Below are positions 2,116 through 17,433 of a stretch of DNA of 20,387 nucleotides, one piece after another. Within the stretch, counting starts at the first letter, position 1. Each line of letters begins with the position of its first letter. A program made the position numbers and the translations under genes. This DNA comes from a virus. The stretch lies in the IMG/VR virus record IMGVR_UViG_3300011253_000399, positions 1 to 20,387 of that record. One strand, given 5' to 3'. Below the pieces are notes generated by a model that made no database searches, had not been told where the DNA came from, and was given only the letters and a program-made list of their open reading frames with translations.

Positions 2116-2562
2116 TTAAGATGCAGACAGCGTAATAGTCCAAGTGATGCTTAGAGTATCGTTAGCAGCCTTATTGACTACTGCAAATACAGTACGAGCC
2201 AACATATCACCAGCAGATGCTGCGTTAAACAGACCAGCCTCAGTAATTGCGCCAGTGCCATCACCTGCACCCCAAGAGGCTACATACGCGATCTCGTTGC
2301 CAGTAACAGTAGTGCTAGTCAGCGCATTGCGGTCTAGCTCTGTTCCTAGAGTAGTATCGCCAGCAGCCGCAGCAACCGTGCCTGTGCCGATAGCCATATA
2401 ACCCATAGCAGCGTCTGTGGTGTCTTTCATGCGTGAGGCAATGAAACCAAGACCAGTAGTAACTACTAAGTTGTTGATATTGCTCTCTTGTTTAATAGCT
2501 CCAGTGGAATCTTTCAGGACTACCGAAAGACGACCTGTAGCCTTGATTTTGCTGTTAATCAT
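2116..2562 (-). CDS. Conserved phage tail/fibre-associated structural protein, 148 aa
   Basis: ATG 2562 is preceded by AAGGA at spacing of about 7. The protein has the pattern of a small family often found among phage fibre genes: an N-terminal beta strand region (GRLSVVLKDSTGAIKQ), then NNLVVTTGLGFIASRM, MGYMAIGTGTVAAAAGDTTL, TELDRNALTSTTVTGNE, GAGDGTGAITEAGLFNAAS, and a C-terminal MLARTVFAVVNKAANDTLSI ending in WTITLSAS. No signal peptide, membrane segment or catalytic motif is seen. It lies between the 18-residue-repeat protein and the 449-aa fibre, with short gaps to both, so it is probably made from the same late transcript and is a minor virion or fibre-adaptor protein. The family resemblance is clear to me from the pattern; no biochemical function is known to me. 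Confidence 0.75.
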   Translation of the reverse strand: MINSKIKATGRLSVVLKDSTGAIKQESNINNLVVTTGLGFIASRMKDTTDAAMGYMAIGTGTVAAAAGDTTLGTELDRNALTSTTVTGNEIAYVASWGAGDGTGAITEAGLFNAASAGDMLARTVFAVVNKAANDTLSITWTITLSAS

Positions 2563-2572
2563 AAGTCATTCC

Positions 2573-3541
2573 TTAAAAAGTACGTTTTTCACCAACATAG
2601 TCGTCAGCAAAATACAGGTTATTGTCTACATAGTCCTGAGATATAAGAACCCCAGAATCAGCAGTCCCTATTGTATCAGATTGCGCTTTTCCAACCAATG
2701 AGACCTGAGACTCCTGCACAACAAAGGAATCGGCAAATACTCTACTAAAGCCCCATGCCAATGAGATGAAGTCACCAGCTATCAAGGTTTCGGTTTGATC
2801 TCGAACGAAGGAAACTTGGACGATCACTGCGTCTGATGCAGCAAAGGAATCATTAAACGCTCTAGAATATGTCGCTTCTAAAGCCACAGTATCTGTCACA
2901 GCGCCGAAGTTAATCAGGCGTTTCTGCACCTGCATCGTCTGATTATCATCAATAGTAGCTTCAGCACCTATATCATCAGTTGAATATAAGTCATCAATAA
3001 TATCTTTGGTGATATCAAAAGCGTGAAAGTCTACCGTGATCGAGGTGTCTACAGGCTGCTTGCCAAACGTGACTACATTAGTATCAGTCACAGAGCCAGC
3101 ATCTGCTGCATCTTCGGTGATTAAAGGGTAAGGATTTAAGACATCTGTAATCGAAATTAGGTCGGCAAAGGACTTAGCTAGGCTTAATCCTGTCACATCC
3201 GTTATAGAAAAAGGGTCTGCAAGTGCCTTGTTAGTCCCGAATGCAGTGACTTCAGACAAGCCAACAAGATCGGTCGGCTGCTTGCCTATGATAGAAAGCA
3301 GCGAATCAGCCAAGGCCAGCGCCTCACTCGCGCCTTTACCAAGTTCACTAGCTGCGGCATCTGTCAGGGTATAGCTATCTACTACAACCTTAGAAGCATC
3401 AAGAGCCGCGCTATCTATAGCAGAAGCAGCGTCAGCTAGGGATTTAGCTATGACAAAAGAGGCTGCGTCAGTTGTGCCTACAGCGTCATTATGCAGTTTC
3501 GAGAACACCCAAGCCGCTATATCAGTCAGGCCAAGCGAGTC
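2573..3541 (-). repeat. About 15-17 degenerate 18-residue (54-bp) repeats
   Basis: From residue 50 to the C-terminus, units start with D and carry T/S-D at positions 6-7 and K near position 15. Clear 18-residue copies include DSLGLTDIAAWVFSKLHN, DAASAIDSAALDASKVVV, DAGSVTDTNVVTFGKQPV and DTSITVDFHAFDITKDII. A few units are lengthened to 20-28 residues. DNA identity between copies is low, so the periodicity is conserved mainly at the protein level. Confidence 0.75.
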
Positions 3542-4024: not shown

Positions 4025-7000
4025 TTATCCGCATAAGTAGATACAGGAGATCATTTTGACCTCACCTGCTTGGAATGTAGCCGCTTCACGAGCCTTAGCT
4101 ACTGTGTAAGAGCGTATTATATCATCTCCCTGTTTCATGCCCTTGCCGAGCGTAGAGCTAGTGACAATTAAGTCGCCAGCTTGAATGTCCCCACCCTCGC
4201 CACAGACATTGACCTGCCCTTCTCCAACAGAGTTTAAGATAATACAGTTGCGATCTATGAACAGCGCATCATATTGCGGGTCTCGCGTAGGCAAATTCTC
4301 AGGCTGTATGTCTTCAATCTCATCAAACACTTTCTCAGGCGTAGCAGTTCTAGCTGACACAGGGACGTAGTTTGCAGGTGACATCTCCGAGTACACGCCG
4401 ATAGCGGATTGATTCGGCTGACTGCTGATTGCTTGTAGACATAAGGTATTAGATATATCTCGCTTAATTAGCACTTCAGTATCAACCATAATATCGCCAA
4501 TCTCAGGCGTTACAGAGTCATCCAGTAGACCATCGTGCATTCCGGTGAAAGGAGTGATCGTGCCTGTAGCAGTAATGTTTCCATTAACGTATACGTTGCC
4601 TGTTGCTTCCACAGCGTAAGTTGAGTTGGCTAAAGAGACAGCTTTTGTTCCCGCTGCAAATATTCCCGCTCTGGTATTGTTACAAAGTCCTGCTTGAGAC
4701 CTGTGAGTAGTGCCGCCAAGGAAAACGGAATTAGCAAAGAACGCACCAAATGAGTTAGCTCCATTATAAGATTGCTGACCCGCCACAGCGACAGAAGGGT
4801 CACCATTACCCAAACCTGCCACGCCAAATGAGTTAGAGTTGGTGCCTCTTAAGATTCCTGCACCAGTGAATCCTGCTACAGTCGTACTAGTTCCAAATTC
4901 AAATTGAAAACTATTTCCTAAAGCACCACCATAGGTCTTTGAGGTATTTGAAATTAGCTTGCCTACAGATAGTGAATCAGCCGCTATTTCTGTTGCTGTT
5001 ATAGCCCCCGCTGCTATCTGTCCTGCTGTGATGGTATTCGCTAATATCTCGTTTGCCGTGATTGTGCCTGTGGCTATTTCGTTTGCAGTAATAGTATTTG
5101 CTGCAATCTTTGCTGCGGTCACTGCATTGGCATCGAGCTTAGATGTGATGATTTGACCATCGCCAATTAATGTAGCCGTAATTGAACCATCTAATATCTT
5201 TGCTGCTGTGATTGCATCATCAGCTATATTAGTGCTACCAACTGCCCCAACTGCTAGTTCGCTAGTGGAAATAGCGCCTGCCGCTATCTGACCTGCTGTA
5301 ATGGTGTTAGAAGCTATCTCTGTGGCTGTAATCGTTCCTGCGGCGATCTTATCTGCGGTTATTGTTCCTGCTGCAATCTTTGCTGCGGTTACTGCATTAG
5401 CGTCTAGCTTTGAAGTAATTATTTGCCCATCGCCAATAAGTGTTGCCGTAATTGATCCGTCTAGTATCTTTGCTGCTGTTATAGCGTCATCAGCTAAATT
5501 AGTGGTATCAACCGCCCCTACCGCTAACTCGCTAGTTGATATAGCTCCTGCCGCTATTTGTCCTGCCGTAATGGTGTTAGAAGCTATCTCATTAGCCGTA
5601 ATAGTGCCTGTGGCAATCTTGGCTGCTGTGATAGTGTTAGCGGCTATCTTATCAGCAGTAATGGCTAGAGCGGCTAGTTTGGCGGTAGTAATAGCACCTG
5701 CGGCTATCTCTGTAGCTGATATTGTCCCTGCCGCTATTTGAGAAGCTGTTATCGTGTTGGCAGCTATCTCGCTTGCGGTAATGGCATTCGCCGCTATTTG
5801 CAGTGCGGTGATTGTTCCTGTAAGTATCTCTGTGGCAGTGATAGCCCCTGCCGCAATCTGACTAGCAGTAATTGTATTTGTGGCTATCTGATTTGCTGTA
5901 ATGGTGCCAGTTGCAATATTTCCCGCGACTATAGTTGCCGAGGCGATTTCAGAAGCTGTGATAGTACCTGCTGTAATCTTTGCGGCTGTTACTGCTCCTG
6001 CTGCTAATTTAGCTGTTTCAATAGCTCCGTCTAATATTTTTGTAGCTGTGATGGCATTAGTTGCTATGACAGCTTCGGTAGCAGCGTTATCTGCAAGCTC
6101 AGCGGATGTAACAGCATCGGCAGCAATCTTAGCTGTAGTAATCGCGTTAGAAGCTATCTTGTCAGCATTGACCGCCAGCGCAGCTATCTTGTCAGTAGTG
6201 ACTGCGTTAGCCGCTATCTTACCTGCCTCAACTGCCGCTGTGCCTAATTTGGTCGCCGTGACAGCCGCTGCTGCAATTTGAGCTGTTTGTACTGTGCCTG
6301 TTAGATCAGAGAAATCACTAGCTCCTTGAACCGTTACATACGATGAGCCATCCCATCGGTACAAGGTATTGTTTGTAGTGTTGTATATCGTCTCAGTGCT
6401 TTTCGTCAAAGGCACACTTGTAACTAGAGTCACAGGTTGAATAGTTGCCGCAAACTGAGCGGCAGTCACGTTACCGCTTAACTCAGAAAAGTTTGTTGCT
6501 CCTGTGGCCTCGGCATAAGCGGAACCATCCCAACGATATAATTTGTTATCGCTAGTGTTATAAATCACTTCTGTAGTCTTGCTAACAGGTACTGATGCAA
6601 CAAGACTTACAGGCTCAATAGTTGAGGCAAACTGAGCAGCAGTGACGTTGCCTGATAGTTGTGAGAAGTCCGTAACGCCTGTTGCAGCAACATAAGCCGA
6701 TCCATCCCATCTGTATAAAATATTGTCCGTTGTGTTGTAAACCACTTCGGTAGACTTGGTGGCAGGTACAGAGGTGACCAGAGTTACAGGTTCAATGGAG
6801 CTGGCAAACTTCGCTACATCAATAGAGCCGTCTACAATACCTGCCGAAGTCACAAGAGTCGCAGAAGCTGAAGCTACCCCAGAAAAGCCAGACACGTTTT
6901 CGCTATAATCCGCTGCCTTGAGCCAGTAGTAATAAGTAGTATCAGCAGCAATATTTTGATCTACAAAAGACTCGCTGTTGATACTAGCGATCTTGGAAGC

Positions 7001-8899
7001 AGAACCAGAGATGTTCGAGGTATGCCTGTAGACATCAATGATCTTTAGGTCTTTCGCAGAAGGATTAGTCCAATCTAAGCGAATGTTCTTGATGCCAGCA
7101 GTAGCGACTAAGCCAGTAGGAGCGTTAGGCGCTGTCGTATCACCATTGATGGTAAAGGTAGCGGTAGTAAATGCACCTTTTACATTTAGCGAGTTAATCG
7201 CTCTGATACGAATCGTAACACTGACCCCTACTTCAGCATTGTAGAACTCGTATTTATTGAGACTGCTAAACAGACTTTTAAACTCAGAGTCGGCTTCGCT
7301 TGTCAGCTTGTACTGTAGTTCGTAATTATTGACCAGATTATCGTAGGACGCATCCCATTGAATAAAGCCAGTAGGTATGACCGTGCCATCTTCACCAAGG
7401 GTCGTAGTCTCAGTGATAGTAATATTGGAGACCGTGCCTACAGTAAACGGATCAGGCAAGCTGGTATCTGGGTAAGCTGTCTGCTCAGTACCTTCCTCCC
7501 ATGTATAGATAGTCGAATCATATTCAAGCAGAGCTAGATCTACTGTGCCGTCCTCGGCAAGCTGCATACCTACGACTTGGAAAGGCTTGGCTGTCCAGCC
7601 CGGAGTTGGATGCGTAATAGACACAACATCTGCAACCTCAAGCTGTAGAGCCTCTGAGGTTGTCTTAATAGCGCAGGTGATCGCATTACGAGACCGCAGC
7701 AAGATAACCCTAGCGAGGTCTCTGGCTTGGTAGTAATTGGTGATTGCGTCTAGTTCGATCTCTTCATGGAGTAAGACACCACCATCTTCTGCTAGATAAG
7801 TAGTCTCTTCAGTTGACCCCGCAGGAGGCCAGATCGCAGTATCAGGTTGCCAGTTAGCATCAGGATTAGGGAACTTTACCGTCACTCGATTAAACTTGTC
7901 TTCCTTACTCTCGCCCTTAATGGCAATGCCACCAATAATCGTATCAGTAGTGAACGTAAACTCACTGCTGCGCGATCCATCTATCTTAAGGCGATATTGA
8001 CCCTGCGAGTACGGCAGGAAGCCACGGCATCCTAGTAATAAGATATTAAGGTTATCAAACAGGCTTTTAGAAGTATCAAGCACGACATTGGTAGTAAACA
8101 ACTTGCCAGAACCGCCACCATCGTACAGAGTCACTGACTCATCGCAAGCGTTGGCAGCGGCAGCTATTGCCACATCGTCAATGGCGCTAACTGGTAAGCC
8201 TTTGCCGTATCGCGTATTGGTGAGGTAGTCACGAATACACAGAGCAGGGTTATCAGACCAAACAGTAGTAGTTGTGCGCGGGTCATATAGTTTTCGGCCT
8301 TTGACTACCGCTGTAATATCAGGGACGCCAGCAAATGCTTCTTCATCCCACGTTAAACGCACCCCTATAAATGCCACACCACGCAATCTATGGTCAGCCG
8401 TCCAGAACTCATTAGCCTCGCGAAGCAATGCGGTATCAGGCATCGTCTGGTTATCAGTTCCTAGATATACGTTCCAGCTTACCAAGCCTGAATACTTAGC
8501 GTCCGTAGACGGCAAGTCATCAAGATATAGATCAGTAACGCTTTCTACTTCCCCTTCGGCTAACACTAGAGCTATGTACAAGTAGTCGTTTGTCGGAGTC
8601 CCAGTTACATCGTCATAAACTTCAGTGTCTGGGTGATAGCCTGAGTACCAATTGGTGTTCCCGCCAACAGTCTTGTAGACACCATCAGTCGATACAAAGA
8701 CACGAACACCGCCAACGCGCCGCTCACCATAGATGACAGGGATTTGCTCAATATTGGATTCTTTGTTGACGAGTACGCCACTCTGCTCGTCATTATTTCG
8801 CTTTGCCGCTTTCTGAGCCTTACGCGCCGCTAGGTAAGAGACCGTGCCAGTTGCCACCATAAAGACAGCAGTTAATACAGCAAATAATGGAAATGGCAT
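4025..8899 (-). CDS. J-like central tail hub and fibre (host specificity) protein, 1624 aa
   Basis: ATG 8899 starts 2 bases after the preceding stop, with GGGG upstream. Domains in order: a hydrophobic segment at 3-25 followed by a basic stretch (AARKAQKAAKR); the tail hub region at about 40-480, of the lambda gpJ / phage-tail-3 type (IEQIPVIYGERRVGGVRVFV, LVLAEGEVESVTDLYLDD, VAFIGVRLTWDEEAF, NPALCIRDYLTNTRYGKGLP); two fibronectin-III domains at about 486-588 and 591-685 (NAPTGLVATAGIKNIRLDW, TTYYYWLKAADYSENVSGFS). Then come three 59-residue repeats (698-874) and about 44 ten-residue repeats (871-1310). A Gly/Phe/Asn-rich segment (1315-1445) and a distinct C-terminal domain (1450-1624) with five Cys close the protein. 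It closes the tail tip and reaches the host receptor. Lambda J is 1132 aa; the excess here is the repeat shaft. The hydrophobic N-terminus may insert in a membrane or pack in the hub. Confidence 0.9.
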   Translation of the reverse strand: MPFPLFAVLTAVFMVATGTVSYLAARKAQKAAKRNNDEQSGVLVNKESNIEQIPVIYGERRVGGVRVFVSTDGVYKTVGGNTNWYSGYHPDTEVYDDVTGTPTNDYLYIALVLAEGEVESVTDLYLDDLPSTDAKYSGLVSWNVYLGTDNQTMPDTALLREANEFWTADHRLRGVAFIGVRLTWDEEAFAGVPDITAVVKGRKLYDPRTTTTVWSDNPALCIRDYLTNTRYGKGLPVSAIDDVAIAAAANACDESVTLYDGGGSGKLFTTNVVLDTSKSLFDNLNILLLGCRGFLPYSQGQYRLKIDGSRSSEFTFTTDTIIGGIAIKGESKEDKFNRVTVKFPNPDANWQPDTAIWPPAGSTEETTYLAEDGGVLLHEEIELDAITNYYQARDLARVILLRSRNAITCAIKTTSEALQLEVADVVSITHPTPGWTAKPFQVVGMQLAEDGTVDLALLEYDSTIYTWEEGTEQTAYPDTSLPDPFTVGTVSNITITETTTLGEDGTVIPTGFIQWDASYDNLVNNYELQYKLTSEADSEFKSLFSSLNKYEFYNAEVGVSVTIRIRAINSLNVKGAFTTATFTINGDTTAPNAPTGLVATAGIKNIRLDWTNPSAKDLKIIDVYRHTSNISGSASKIASINSESFVDQNIAADTTYYYWLKAADYSENVSGFSGVASASATLVTSAGIVDGSIDVAKFASSIEPVTLVTSVPATKSTEVVYNTTDNILYRWDGSAYVAATGVTDFSQLSGNVTAAQFASTIEPVSLVASVPVSKTTEVIYNTSDNKLYRWDGSAYAEATGATNFSELSGNVTAAQFAATIQPVTLVTSVPLTKSTETIYNTTNNTLYRWDGSSYVTVQGASDFSDLTGTVQTAQIAAAAVTATKLGTAAVEAGKIAANAVTTDKIAALAVNADKIASNAITTAKIAADAVTSAELADNAATEAVIATNAITATKILDGAIETAKLAAGAVTAAKITAGTITASEIASATIVAGNIATGTITANQIATNTITASQIAAGAITATEILTGTITALQIAANAITASEIAANTITASQIAAGTISATEIAAGAITTAKLAALAITADKIAANTITAAKIATGTITANEIASNTITAGQIAAGAISTSELAVGAVDTTNLADDAITAAKILDGSITATLIGDGQIITSKLDANAVTAAKIAAGTITADKIAAGTITATEIASNTITAGQIAAGAISTSELAVGAVGSTNIADDAITAAKILDGSITATLIGDGQIITSKLDANAVTAAKIAANTITANEIATGTITANEILANTITAGQIAAGAITATEIAADSLSVGKLISNTSKTYGGALGNSFQFEFGTSTTVAGFTGAGILRGTNSNSFGVAGLGNGDPSVAVAGQQSYNGANSFGAFFANSVFLGGTTHRSQAGLCNNTRAGIFAAGTKAVSLANSTYAVEATGNVYVNGNITATGTITPFTGMHDGLLDDSVTPEIGDIMVDTEVLIKRDISNTLCLQAISSQPNQSAIGVYSEMSPANYVPVSARTATPEKVFDEIEDIQPENLPTRDPQYDALFIDRNCIILNSVGEGQVNVCGEGGDIQAGDLIVTSSTLGKGMKQGDDIIRSYTVAKAREAATFQAGEVKMISCIYLCG
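4955..6292 (-). repeat. About 44 in-register decapeptide (30-bp) repeats in J-like gene
   Basis: Residues 871-1315 follow a strict 10-residue period with no register slip: T-A-x-x-[IL]-A-x-x-[TA]-[IV], for example TASQIAAGAI, TANEIASNTI and TADKIAANTI. Hydrophobic residues fall every fifth position (5 and 10), separated by small or polar residues. This suggests an extended homotrimeric or solenoid shaft. Codons vary widely between units, so the DNA is far less uniform than the protein. Confidence 0.9.
5033..5572 (-). repeat. 270-bp tandem duplication (2 copies) inside decapeptide array
   Basis: Copy 1 is 5572-5303 and copy 2 is 5302-5033. Each encodes nine decapeptides beginning ITAGQIAAGAISTSELAVGA and including ITAAKILDGS, ITATLIGDGQ and IITSKLDANA in the same order. 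The six inner decapeptides are almost identical between copies, apart from VDTTNLADDA versus VGSTNIADDA. Synonymous differences are scattered. A third partial start (ITAGQIAAGAI) follows at 5032. This indicates unequal recombination on top of the older 30-bp array. Confidence 0.88.
6278..6808 (-). repeat. Three tandem 59-residue (177-bp) repeats in J-like gene
   Basis: Units cover residues 698-756, 757-815 and 816-874. Each has the order F-A-x-x-I-x-P-V, LVxSVP, K(S/T)TE, (V/I)YNT, LYRWDGS, then xFSxL(S/T)GxV and AAQFA or TAQIA. The LYRWDG strand-turn motif is common in phage fibre proteins. The three units link the FN3 domains to the decapeptide shaft. Confidence 0.9.
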
Positions 8900-13761: not shown

Positions 13762-15639
13762 CTAGCCATCGTTACCGAAAGCGAAGCTCTGCGCGTGACG
13801 TACTGCTACGTCAACTGATTGCAGTGCAACGACTCGGATAGTACCTGTAGTTGATGCTGTGTAAGGATCAACAACGATATCAAGACCGCCAAACATTCCG
13901 ATCAATAGATCAGAGAAGTTACCAAAGTACAGATTACCAGCAGTCGCTTGGTTAGAAACGATTGAGCGGTAGCCGTTCATGGTATTTCCGTCTGCAACGA
14001 ACTGAGCTGTGCCAGTGGCTTTCTCAGTTGTCTTCAACGCGCCGTACATACTCGCAGGGAGGATGTAAGACAGATTGCCAGCAAGCGCGTTATCTTCAGC
14101 AATAGCTGTCTCTAGGCTTACGACTTCCGCAAACGTAGGAGTAGCTGCCGCAAAGTTAGTCACTTGGTTAACACCACTCGTAGCTAAGATACCAGTTGGC
14201 GCACCGCTTGTACCTGCTCCTTCTAGGCCAGCCTTATCAATAGTCAATGCCATTGCAGACGTAAGGTCGTTGCGAATAAGAGCCTCAACATCCAATGAAC
14301 CTTGAATCAAGAGCTGACGAGTTACGTCAGTAAATGCACCCAAAGTCTTAGGTGTCATAGAGACTTGACCTACAGTCATTTGGCTCTCAGTCGCAGCACC
14401 ACCTTCAGTAGCAATCCAAGCAGCAGTAGCAGCAACAGTTTTCTTAGGGATTTTAACATCACCAGAAAGACCGCCAAGCATTGTAGCGCCAGCTTGCATT
14501 ACGCTTGAAGCGTTGCGTAGTACGTCAATGAAGTCACCAGCTCGGAAATCGTCACCGATCAAGTCGCCAGCAGCGTTTGCTGTGCCAGCAGTTAGATCAC
14601 GCTTCCAGTTAGCCATTACTTCAGCAGGTAGCATAATGCCCTGAGCCGAACGACCATACTGCTCGGCAGCAGCTCGTGATGCCTCGAACTCAAACGCAGC
14701 AGCTTCTTGAGCGCGACGATCAGTTGGATTAGCAAGAGCGTGAATCGCACGAACCATTGAAAAGCGCTGAACGTCTTTCTTAGTCATGCCGATGGACTGA
14801 TCTTCTAGAGCGCGTTGGCTACCGACTTTCTCAAGCAGTTGACCACGGAACTCTTCGATTGATGTGCCTTCAGAAATAGCTTTTTGAGCCATTTCATTCT
14901 CAGCGTGACGCGATCCCAACTCAATGATTTGAGCTGCATTCTTTTGGGCAGATTGGCGAGCGTTAGCTTCGACTGCCACGATATCTACTTCAGACATAGT
15001 TTTGTCCTCTACATAAGTTACGATTTCGGGTTGTTTTGGCTGCTCGCTTGATCTACCCACGCCAACTGTCACATCAGCGGGAATTGATACTAAACTTGCT
15101 TCCATAGGCATCCAAGATTTGGCGATATACGTTTCGCCGTCTCTGGTGTCTTTTTGCATTTTGCTAATTGAGTAACCAACGCTAATGTTAGCTCTGATAC
15201 CGTCTAGCACATCATCGAACGCCTCTCTAGCAAGTGCGCCTTTTCCAAAGCGTACAGTCGCTCGCAGTCTACGAGCCGAGCCATCAAGGTCTACCGATTC
15301 TATTACGCCTATCTGTTTCTCTGGGTCATGATCCAGCAACAGTGGCGCTCTGCCTGAAGCGAGGAATGATAAATCAATCGCCTCGGCTGTGTGTTCTAGC
15401 ACTTCATTACCGAATGACCTGACCACAGGCTCTTCGGATGAAATGGCAATTTGTACTGTTCGCTTATCTTCATTGATAGGCGATGCGTCTAAAGACATAG
15501 CGCGATGCACTACTTCAACAGTAGCTTTACGCTCTTCAACGATTTCCTCTGCTCGCTCTTCAACGATATTCTCGCTGACTTGCGCTACAGTCTCGTCTAC
15601 AGTTTCTTCGACGTTATCTTCAATTGTGATTTCAGTCAT
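13762..15639 (-). CDS. Fused prohead protease (S78-type) and HK97-fold major capsid protein, 625 aa
   Basis: ATG 15639 has AGAGGA at spacing 7. Residues 1-40 are a strongly acidic head. Residues about 43-195 are an S78-type prohead protease: NEDKRTVQIAISSEEPVVRS, AIDLSFLASGRAPLLLDHD with the likely catalytic His104, DGIRANISVGYSI with the likely nucleophile Ser153, and MPMEASLVSIPAD. Residues 215-330 are a helical delta/scaffold region (EANARQSAQKNAAQIIELGS, EEFRGQLLEKV). From about 333 the HK97 capsid fold follows: GIMLPAEVMANWKRDL, then AAWIATEGGAATESQMTVGQ, LGAFTDVTRQLLIQGSLDVE, SLSYIL-type P-domain strands and FGGLDIVVDPYT near the end. The protease should cleave the delta region after assembly, leaving a capsid protein of about 290 aa. 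Lambda instead uses an unrelated S49-type protease C, scaffold Nu3, decoration D and capsid E; none is seen here. Both halves are clear; the cleavage site is a guess near residue 330. Confidence 0.93.
   Translation of the reverse strand: MTEITIEDNVEETVDETVAQVSENIVEERAEEIVEERKATVEVVHRAMSLDASPINEDKRTVQIAISSEEPVVRSFGNEVLEHTAEAIDLSFLASGRAPLLLDHDPEKQIGVIESVDLDGSARRLRATVRFGKGALAREAFDDVLDGIRANISVGYSISKMQKDTRDGETYIAKSWMPMEASLVSIPADVTVGVGRSSEQPKQPEIVTYVEDKTMSEVDIVAVEANARQSAQKNAAQIIELGSRHAENEMAQKAISEGTSIEEFRGQLLEKVGSQRALEDQSIGMTKKDVQRFSMVRAIHALANPTDRRAQEAAAFEFEASRAAAEQYGRSAQGIMLPAEVMANWKRDLTAGTANAAGDLIGDDFRAGDFIDVLRNASSVMQAGATMLGGLSGDVKIPKKTVAATAAWIATEGGAATESQMTVGQVSMTPKTLGAFTDVTRQLLIQGSLDVEALIRNDLTSAMALTIDKAGLEGAGTSGAPTGILATSGVNQVTNFAAATPTFAEVVSLETAIAEDNALAGNLSYILPASMYGALKTTEKATGTAQFVADGNTMNGYRSIVSNQATAGNLYFGNFSDLLIGMFGGLDIVVDPYTASTTGTIRVVALQSVDVAVRHAQSFAFGNDG
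14995..15010 (-). promoter_or_regulatory. Internal ribosome binding site and start for capsid-only product
   Basis: Within the fused frame, AGAGGA (15010-15005) lies 7 bases before an in-frame ATG at 14997-14995 (codon 215, MSEVDIVAVEANARQS). This matches, base for base in the core and in spacing, the site used at the start of the whole gene (AGAGGA, spacing 7). Starting here would give a 411-aa delta plus capsid product without the protease. Initiation is inferred. Confidence 0.6.
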
Positions 15640-15667
15640 CTCTGAATCCTCTTCAGCAATGTGATGC

Positions 15668-15676
15668 AGTATATCA
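15668..15676 (-). promoter_or_regulatory. Candidate extended -10 promoter before protease-capsid gene
   Basis: The 51-base gap between portal stop and protease start holds TGATATACT, an extended -10 (TG-n-TATACT). A weak -35 candidate, TTAAAG at 15694-15689, lies 15 bases upstream, closer than ideal. Transcription would begin near 15661 and leave a leader of about 20 bases. This is one of only two real gaps in the cluster. The match is short and could be chance. Confidence 0.33.
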
Positions 15677-15690
15677 TAGGAGCAATCCCT

Positions 15691-17433
15691 TTAACTTTCA
15701 GAGGCCGCAGCCCCTGCGCCAGAAACAATCTTTTTAGCTTTATCTTCAGCAACACCAAAACCAACTATCAGTATTTCGATAGCTGACTCTTGGCTAAGTG
15801 TTCCAACACCATAAGCGGTCACTACTTCAATAATAGAAGCAACTTGCGCTCCGTTCATGAGTTTATCTGGCGATTGAATGCCTTGATCTTCAGCCTTTGG
15901 AGACGGCTTGTCAGCAGATGGACTAGCAGCGCTAGGCTGCATGACTGATAAGGTCTCGCCTGTTTCTTCGTCAATATATGGCATGACAGGCATGAACTGA
16001 GCGCCATAAGGCTCTAGTGCGTACTTAACGCCAAACTGTTCTGCCATCATCTTGTCTCGTGCAATCTGAGACATAAGCTCTTCAGCGTCTTTACCGTACT
16101 GACTAGCGACATCCTGAATAGATAAGATTCCGCTTTTAAGTCCTAAGACCGAGGCATTCATTTCTTTTAACGGATCAATCCATGACCAACCCTTCCCTCT
16201 AAACTCGGCAGCAGATGAGAATCTAATATATTGACGAGTCGGAATACCGAAAGTGTTCATCTCCATTGCACTTTCTAGCCAGCTTTCAAAGATAGGCTGT
16301 ACAAAATGCTGAATCATGAAATGCTGCACATCTCGGTAAAAGTCGCGTTCTTCTAGTGCGCCTTGGCGAATACTAGAGTAGCTAGTGGCTTCAAGGTCGT
16401 TAGATAATGAGGTGTAACTAACCCCTAACGCAGATGCGATAGATTTAAGGACGGACTTATGGAAGCCCTCAAACTCATTATTAGGATTACTGGGGTCAAA
16501 CGCTGTGAAATCCACGCCATTTGGAAGCTGATGAAAAGTACCAGGCTCTGCATCCATGATAGGCACTTGCCCATCTAGATCGTCAGCCACAAAACCATCA
16601 CCCGCTGGACTTGTAAAGAAGCCCATCTTACTAGCACCAACACGCGCTGCGACTAATGCAGCTTCAATGTATGCGCCCAATTGTTTTAATCCCGCCATCG
16701 CAGGAGACATCCACGGCTCGCCACGAGTCTGACCAGAGCGTAAAGGCATAAACACATGGATGACTTTCTCAGCCTCTATGCGAATCGTCTTCTTAGCGAC
16801 ACTCATCGTAGTGAAATCGTAATCTCCGGGATGATACGACAAAAAGTGATACGCAATCGGCTTCTTGAACTGGTTCAGCTCAATACCCATGCGAATCTCA
16901 TTGCCGTTACTCAGCTTCTCGTTTTTAGTTTCATCTACCTGATCTGCTTCGATGAACTCAATAGCAAACGAGTCTTTAAAGCTGTTGCCACGATGCTTCA
17001 CAATAAACACTTCGCCATCACGCGCCAGCGCTTCCAAGCATAGCTTTTGAGCATCAACCCAACTTATTCGACCGTCTACGGTAGGATTGCCGAGCTTTGC
17101 CCATTGCAGAAACGCAGTTTCAACCGCAGAATTGCCAGTTTCATCGAGCTTACCCACCGTATCTAGCGCCTTAACCTGCAAGCTAAACCCCTTGCCGCCA
17201 ACCACGTTGGTCTTAAGCAGGTTGATATAGCGTTTTGCGTACTGGTTATTGCGTACTAAATCCCTAGATCGTGATCTGATAACCTTGAGAACTGGACTTA
17301 ATTCGGAATCTGCTGAGCGTTCAGAAGATTTGAAGTCAGCAAACAAACGACCTGCATTAGCTGAAGCATAGGCACGTTTAAACGGCTTTGGTTCAGGCTT
17401 TGCTTTTTTCGTGAAAATGTCGAAAATCGCCAT
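15691..17433 (-). CDS. Portal protein, lambda gpB family, 580 aa
   Basis: ATG 17433 directly abuts the stop of the gpW-like gene; GAGG lies 6 bases upstream. The N-terminus is typical of lambda-type portals: FKRAYASANAGRLFADFKSS, then SELSPVLKVIRSRSRDLVRN, YINLLKTNVVGGKGFSLQV. Other family patterns are LCLEALARDGEVFIVKHRG, IEFIEADQVDE, KVIHVFMPLRSGQTRGEPWM and SYTSLSNDLEATSYSSIRQG. The portal forms the dodecameric ring at one capsid vertex through which DNA enters and leaves, and it docks terminase. Lambda gpB is 533 aa. The extra length is at the C-terminus: a Pro/Ser/Lys-rich linker (about 493-520) and a small helical domain at about 524-570 (NGAQVASIIEVVTAYGVGTL, then ESAIEILIVGFGVAEDKAKK). 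I know this from the ends of other portal families, not from lambda. Confidence 0.93.
   Translation of the reverse strand: MAIFDIFTKKAKPEPKPFKRAYASANAGRLFADFKSSERSADSELSPVLKVIRSRSRDLVRNNQYAKRYINLLKTNVVGGKGFSLQVKALDTVGKLDETGNSAVETAFLQWAKLGNPTVDGRISWVDAQKLCLEALARDGEVFIVKHRGNSFKDSFAIEFIEADQVDETKNEKLSNGNEIRMGIELNQFKKPIAYHFLSYHPGDYDFTTMSVAKKTIRIEAEKVIHVFMPLRSGQTRGEPWMSPAMAGLKQLGAYIEAALVAARVGASKMGFFTSPAGDGFVADDLDGQVPIMDAEPGTFHQLPNGVDFTAFDPSNPNNEFEGFHKSVLKSIASALGVSYTSLSNDLEATSYSSIRQGALEERDFYRDVQHFMIQHFVQPIFESWLESAMEMNTFGIPTRQYIRFSSAAEFRGKGWSWIDPLKEMNASVLGLKSGILSIQDVASQYGKDAEELMSQIARDKMMAEQFGVKYALEPYGAQFMPVMPYIDEETGETLSVMQPSAASPSADKPSPKAEDQGIQSPDKLMNGAQVASIIEVVTAYGVGTLSQESAIEILIVGFGVAEDKAKKIVSGAGAAASES

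Follow-up and report, generated by a model that had tools for sequence, protein, structure and literature searches.

The window analysed here is a 20,387-nt stretch of viral DNA, the IMG/VR record IMGVR_UViG_3300011253_000399. A gene of 625 codons plus stop, which matches Pfam S78 and Phage_capsid as well as phrog_617, lies on its minus strand at 13762..15639; the frame runs from the ATG at 15639 to a stop codon at 13764-13762. Its setting is an ordinary head-tail cassette, with the portal gene (15691-17433) on one side and small head-tail genes on the other. The stop codon of the portal gene shares the frame of the protease-capsid gene and is followed by 17 sense codons before the ATG at 15639 (15640-15693). 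The same gene is present at 100% amino acid identity on a second metagenome contig (L002), and therefore the fusion is not an assembly error.

The encoded chain runs from a prohead protease of the Peptidase_S78 type through a disordered linker and a predicted helical delta (scaffold) domain to a capsid with the HK97 fold. Peptidase_S78 matches residues 89-192 with 25.8 bits, above the gathering cut-off of 21, Phage_capsid (PF05065) matches residues 360-623 (E 3e-42), and the full-length profile of phrog_617, the fused major head protein, aligns residues 43-623 with positions 8-622 of 626 (E 1.3e-154). Two alignments, of 16 and of 29 relatives, show no variation at His104 or Ser153. The first-pass annotation had described the gene as a 625-codon fusion of a protease bearing these two residues to an HK97-type capsid, and the frame, the Pfam matches, and the invariant residues all confirm this description, with the minus strand as the coding strand. 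Two NCBIfam cut-offs were not reached by the gene; NF045541, a protease/capsid fusion model, gave 151.7 bits on the N-terminal half alone (cut-off 525), and TIGR01543, the HK97 proheadase equivalog, gave 32 bits (cut-off 59).

In the AlphaFold2 model of the 625-aa chain (mean pLDDT 69.7, 29 sequences), a beta-rich protease at about residues 53-195 is followed by a stretch with pLDDT below 50 (196-226), by helices at 223-272 and 295-328, and then by the capsid domain. The protease module can be delimited from the confident beta-rich part and the invariant residues to residues 53-195 (15055..15483, minus strand), and the inter-domain linker, which is of low confidence or disordered and hypervariable judging from pLDDT and column conservation, to residues 196-222 (14974..15054, minus strand). 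The best solved matches of the modelled capsid domain in Foldseek are the capsid of phage R4C (8gta) and the HK97 prohead. Alignment with 8gta, the R4C major capsid protein, begins at residue 358 of the fusion and sets the mature capsid part at about residues 357-625 (13765..14571, minus strand). The 8gta chain covers residues 362-629 of the 629-aa R4C ORF, and the helical N-terminal region is absent from the modelled chain.

The gene start, the ATG of codon 1 (15637..15639, minus strand), is preceded at a distance of 7 nt by the Shine-Dalgarno (SD) sequence AGAGGA (15647..15652, minus strand; anti-SD pairing -5.8 kcal/mol). As had been pointed out from the sequence at the outset, the same layout recurs inside the frame, where AGAGGA (15005..15010, minus strand) stands 7 bases before the ATG of codon 215 (14995..14997, minus strand), and this pair proved unique in the window; AGAGGA-N7-ATG occurs only at codons 1 and 215 when both strands of the 20.4 kb are scanned, against 0.19 occurrences expected, and two or more matches were obtained in just 2 of 100 shuffles. 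Among the 19 in-frame ATGs, moreover, only these two have an anti-SD pairing energy of -5 kcal/mol or below, both at -5.8 kcal/mol. A chance origin of the duplicated site was rejected on the basis of the shuffles and of the family-wide comparison with other in-frame ATGs given below. The opening energy is lowest at codon 215 (6.2 kcal/mol), compared with 10.5 at the gene start and 9.5-16.9 at the other in-frame ATGs. Thus, the internal site is calculated to be as strong as the gene start and more accessible. In the AlphaFold2 model, Met215 lies inside the disordered linker, 8 residues ahead of the first delta helix. A product initiated there is predicted to comprise the delta domain and the capsid, 411 aa in all (13762..14997, minus strand), which agrees with the earlier proposal that the internal start would place the delta scaffold at the N-terminus of the capsid protein as in HK97.

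Relatives were gathered from IMG/VR and from phage isolates to give 203 usable genes. The internal Met occupies the same alignment column in 191 of them and lies within a few residues of it in 10 more. One of the two remaining genes (L130) has GTG behind CCCAAGGAGATCCCT, with AAGGAG at 6 nt, and this exchange of ATG for GTG makes most sense if the codon serves as a start codon. In the other, phiHAP-1, an ATG together with CGAGGA is located 12 residues upstream, and VP882 carries a matching upstream site. At 70% redundancy, conservation amounts to 92% for the Met and peaks at 49% in the seven linker columns immediately preceding it. At only 21-31% identity, the fusions of Helicobacter prophages and of a gut phage still have AAAGGAG or AAGAGGG ahead of the boundary ATG. 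In one of these Helicobacter prophage fusions (L211, 1454-1526), the internal ribosome site is in tandem, CAAGGAGAAGAAAAT-ATG occurring twice 42 nt apart. A genome scan with P0001 gave no matches, and alignment A1 contained no run of sequence sufficiently conserved for scanning genomes.

Split relatives are also known. In one (L012), the portal gene is followed by a separate gene for a 214-aa protease and then by a capsid ORF whose start, equipped with an SD of its own, is the homologous Met; in another (L213), protease and capsid frames adjoin. The fusion boundary resembles such an old gene junction, and the internal SD and ATG might accordingly be a relic of a two-gene ancestor that lost its stop codon, with the full-length fusion being the only product made. 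A relic would be expected to erode, particularly within a linker that is hypervariable, but the start codon and SD persist down to about 21-31% identity, the ATG can be replaced by GTG, and the SD is re-encoded by other residues. This explanation is therefore improbable.

The first-pass annotation had asked, through an alignment of homologous fusions, whether the internal SD and ATG are kept beyond codon needs, and they are, the synonymous-codon null being exceeded. In 111 representatives at 90%, the mean anti-SD energy at the internal Met is -6.86 kcal/mol, compared with -2.00 at 1569 other in-frame ATGs (p 2e-48). Synonymous recoding of the internal SD with each gene's own codons gives only -4.08 kcal/mol against the observed -6.86 (p 5.5e-18). 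As the relatives are not independent, these p-values are optimistic and the low-redundancy sets are more trustworthy; in 20 representatives below 60% identity, the anti-SD energy is -6.17 as against -2.47, and the synonymous test gives p 1.8e-5. The Glu codon GAG makes up 81/125 (65%) in the SD window and 1642/4400 (37%) elsewhere. The SD is encoded variously through Lys-Glu, Glu-Glu, Glu-Asp, Glu-Val, Met-Glu, and other residues, and in another codon phase in 5 of 100 representatives; among the 100 representatives with an SD core, 94 have it 5-8 nt ahead of the ATG. Most internal SDs nevertheless sit in Lys-Glu or Glu-Glu codons, so a preference at the protein level could partly contribute. 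No homologue lacking both the internal ATG and the SD was found in this family. The cyanophages S-LBS1, S-CBS1, and S-CBS3 (L014, L017, and L019) have the boundary ATG without an SD, perhaps because their hosts are less SD-dependent, and the internal SD is weak in L084, L132, and the FoX-type L023 and L024. Together, these comparisons show the SD to be kept at the RNA level and strongly support a selected internal start where the protease meets the delta domain.

An SD-like sequence placed precisely at a domain boundary might also act as a ribosome pause, aiding the folding of the protease ahead of capsid synthesis. A pause requires no start codon, yet almost every member retains ATG or GTG 5-8 nt downstream; since the retained start codon would be left unexplained, a pause-only reading was rejected and is regarded as very unlikely. 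Even less credit is given to a programmed frameshift near the boundary, in which the SD would serve as a stimulator and early termination would free the protease. The -1 frame does stop inside the boundary region in 90% of the members, compared with 69% at control positions, but slippery heptamers are found in just 5 of 111 and at no fixed place, and release of the protease by frameshifting was rejected on account of this scarcity.

Functional in-frame internal initiation, by which the 411-aa delta-capsid chain would be made beside the 625-aa fusion, is thus highly probable. Initiation at codon 1 would yield the 625-aa protease-delta-capsid chain, and initiation at codon 215 the 411-aa delta-capsid chain without the protease. 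The two chains would co-assemble through the delta and capsid domains that they have in common. A minority of fused chains would thereby bring the protease into the procapsid, and the protease would then excise itself and the delta domains to leave a mature capsid protein of about 269 residues. We infer that the shell is built mainly from the 411-aa delta-capsid, to which the 625-aa fusion adds a small number of chains bearing the protease. The proposals that the two chains co-assemble, that the short one is made in excess, and that cleavage proceeds in this sequence derive from the biology of HK97 and lambda and from the capsid structure of R4C. The virion shell of R4C contains 415 capsid copies (PMC10276861). 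Its modelled virion chain, residues 362-629 of the 629-aa ORF, fits the proposed processing; the mature capsid would be identical from either precursor, and the structure therefore does not discriminate between them.

Nested genes of this kind have a precedent in lambda C/Nu3 (Shaw and Murialdo, 1980, as cited in PMC8508860). In lambda, an in-frame internal start in the gene for a head maturation protease gives the C-terminal part alone and thereby sets the amount of protease, as is proposed here. The lambda internal start, however, yields a scaffold, with the capsid encoded by a separate gene, whereas the internal product here would be the delta scaffold together with the major capsid protein. 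The fusion gene shares with C/Nu3-type arrangements a conserved internal SD and an in-frame start codon, and the internal frame continues through the capsid to the stop of the gene, so that its product would not be a separate scaffold like Nu3. The lambda protease belongs to a different class (ClpP/S49-like). HK97 gp4/gp5 has an S78 protease followed by a delta-capsid, and the predicted internal product is gp5-like in that it begins at the delta domain, although in HK97 a stop separates two genes and the frame here is single and open. Of these systems, lambda C/Nu3 comes closest in the way it works and HK97 gp4/gp5 in structure.

Homology throughout, with the same internal start, is found in the fused major head proteins of phrog_617, including those of R4C, RcCronus, S-CBS1/3, phiHAP-1, VP882, ep3, and CRP-811. 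These proteins are annotated as a single chain, and the internal start is absent from their records and from the open-access literature found. Fused genes are mentioned by the authors who described the Rhodobacter phages (PMC8601537). The open-access papers found describe fused genes and contain no report of the internal start, which is weak evidence of novelty.

Two other types of fusion can be compared. First, the NF045541 type (gpT/Phage_capsid_4 type) has the same order of protease, linker, and capsid, although its capsid is of another family. All 81 close relatives of one such gene (L215) have a boundary Met with a GAGGA/GAGG-type SD. The synonymous-codon test is not significant in this family (p 0.97) because the Glu-Glu codons there already yield an SD. 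An exception is a distant member, a plasmid-borne fusion of Rhodovastum (L214, 1945-3831), which scores over the NF045541 cut-off and has no convincing boundary start. By its sequence pattern, the internal-start design appears to recur in this second fusion family. Second, a single gene of phage MD8 encodes the protease, the scaffold, and the capsid, and internal initiation goes unmentioned in the lines of the same paper that describe it (PMC8508860). In the MD8-type ClpP/capsid fusion (NF045540), whose protease fold is unrelated, GAGGA stands 10 nt before the boundary ATG in 81 of 81 genes. This boundary is conserved as protein, so its SD is not informative and the candidate site is only suggestive.

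The nesting may go further in some marine relatives (L013, 299-1000; L140; L136; L164; and about 50 other IMG/VR sequences), which have an extra in-frame region upstream of the protease; in CRP-811, this region matches phrog_2859 and is TUDOR-like. A second conserved SD and ATG lie at the junction of the upstream module and the protease, with a mean energy of -6.5 kcal/mol and 86% of 57 sequences at -5 or below. It is possible that these relatives carry a gene with three nested starts. In L140, an ORF that looks by eye like an HNH endonuclease is encoded on the opposite strand within the open extension upstream (2149-2595, minus strand); as it overlaps part of this extension, the extensions need not all be translated, and part of the one in L140 may be spurious. 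The gene start in the window appears to be the counterpart of the junction site, judging from shared patterns such as GAGGATCAGACC ATG ACT GAT. These observations suggest that starts in this cassette turn internal whenever the upstream frame stays open.

Hundreds of capsid chains are required per shell and presumably few proteases, which poses a question of stoichiometry for fused genes. A conserved internal start offers a direct answer, as it would allow more shell than protease to be made from one frame. Database entries for phrog_617-type fusions would then describe a precursor form through which most capsid subunits probably never passed, and the internal start provides an annotation rule for the real N-terminus of the capsid protein. 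On balance, we lean slightly toward a broader proposition, that internal initiation is a general and repeatedly arising rule of phage protease-capsid fusions, extending over at least two differently composed families (phrog_617 and NF045541/gpT, and possibly the ClpP type) with up to three nested products per frame; if so, every fusion now entered in databases as one capsid protein would come from a gene with two or three products. The proposed internal start can be tested in the cultured phages R4C, RcCronus, CRP-811, ep3, and Persinger. Elsewhere in the window, a 1624-aa ORF at 4025-8899, which has sub-threshold Pfam matches alone (OLF, Decapeptide, and Tail_spike_N), is likely to encode a large tail fibre or spike.
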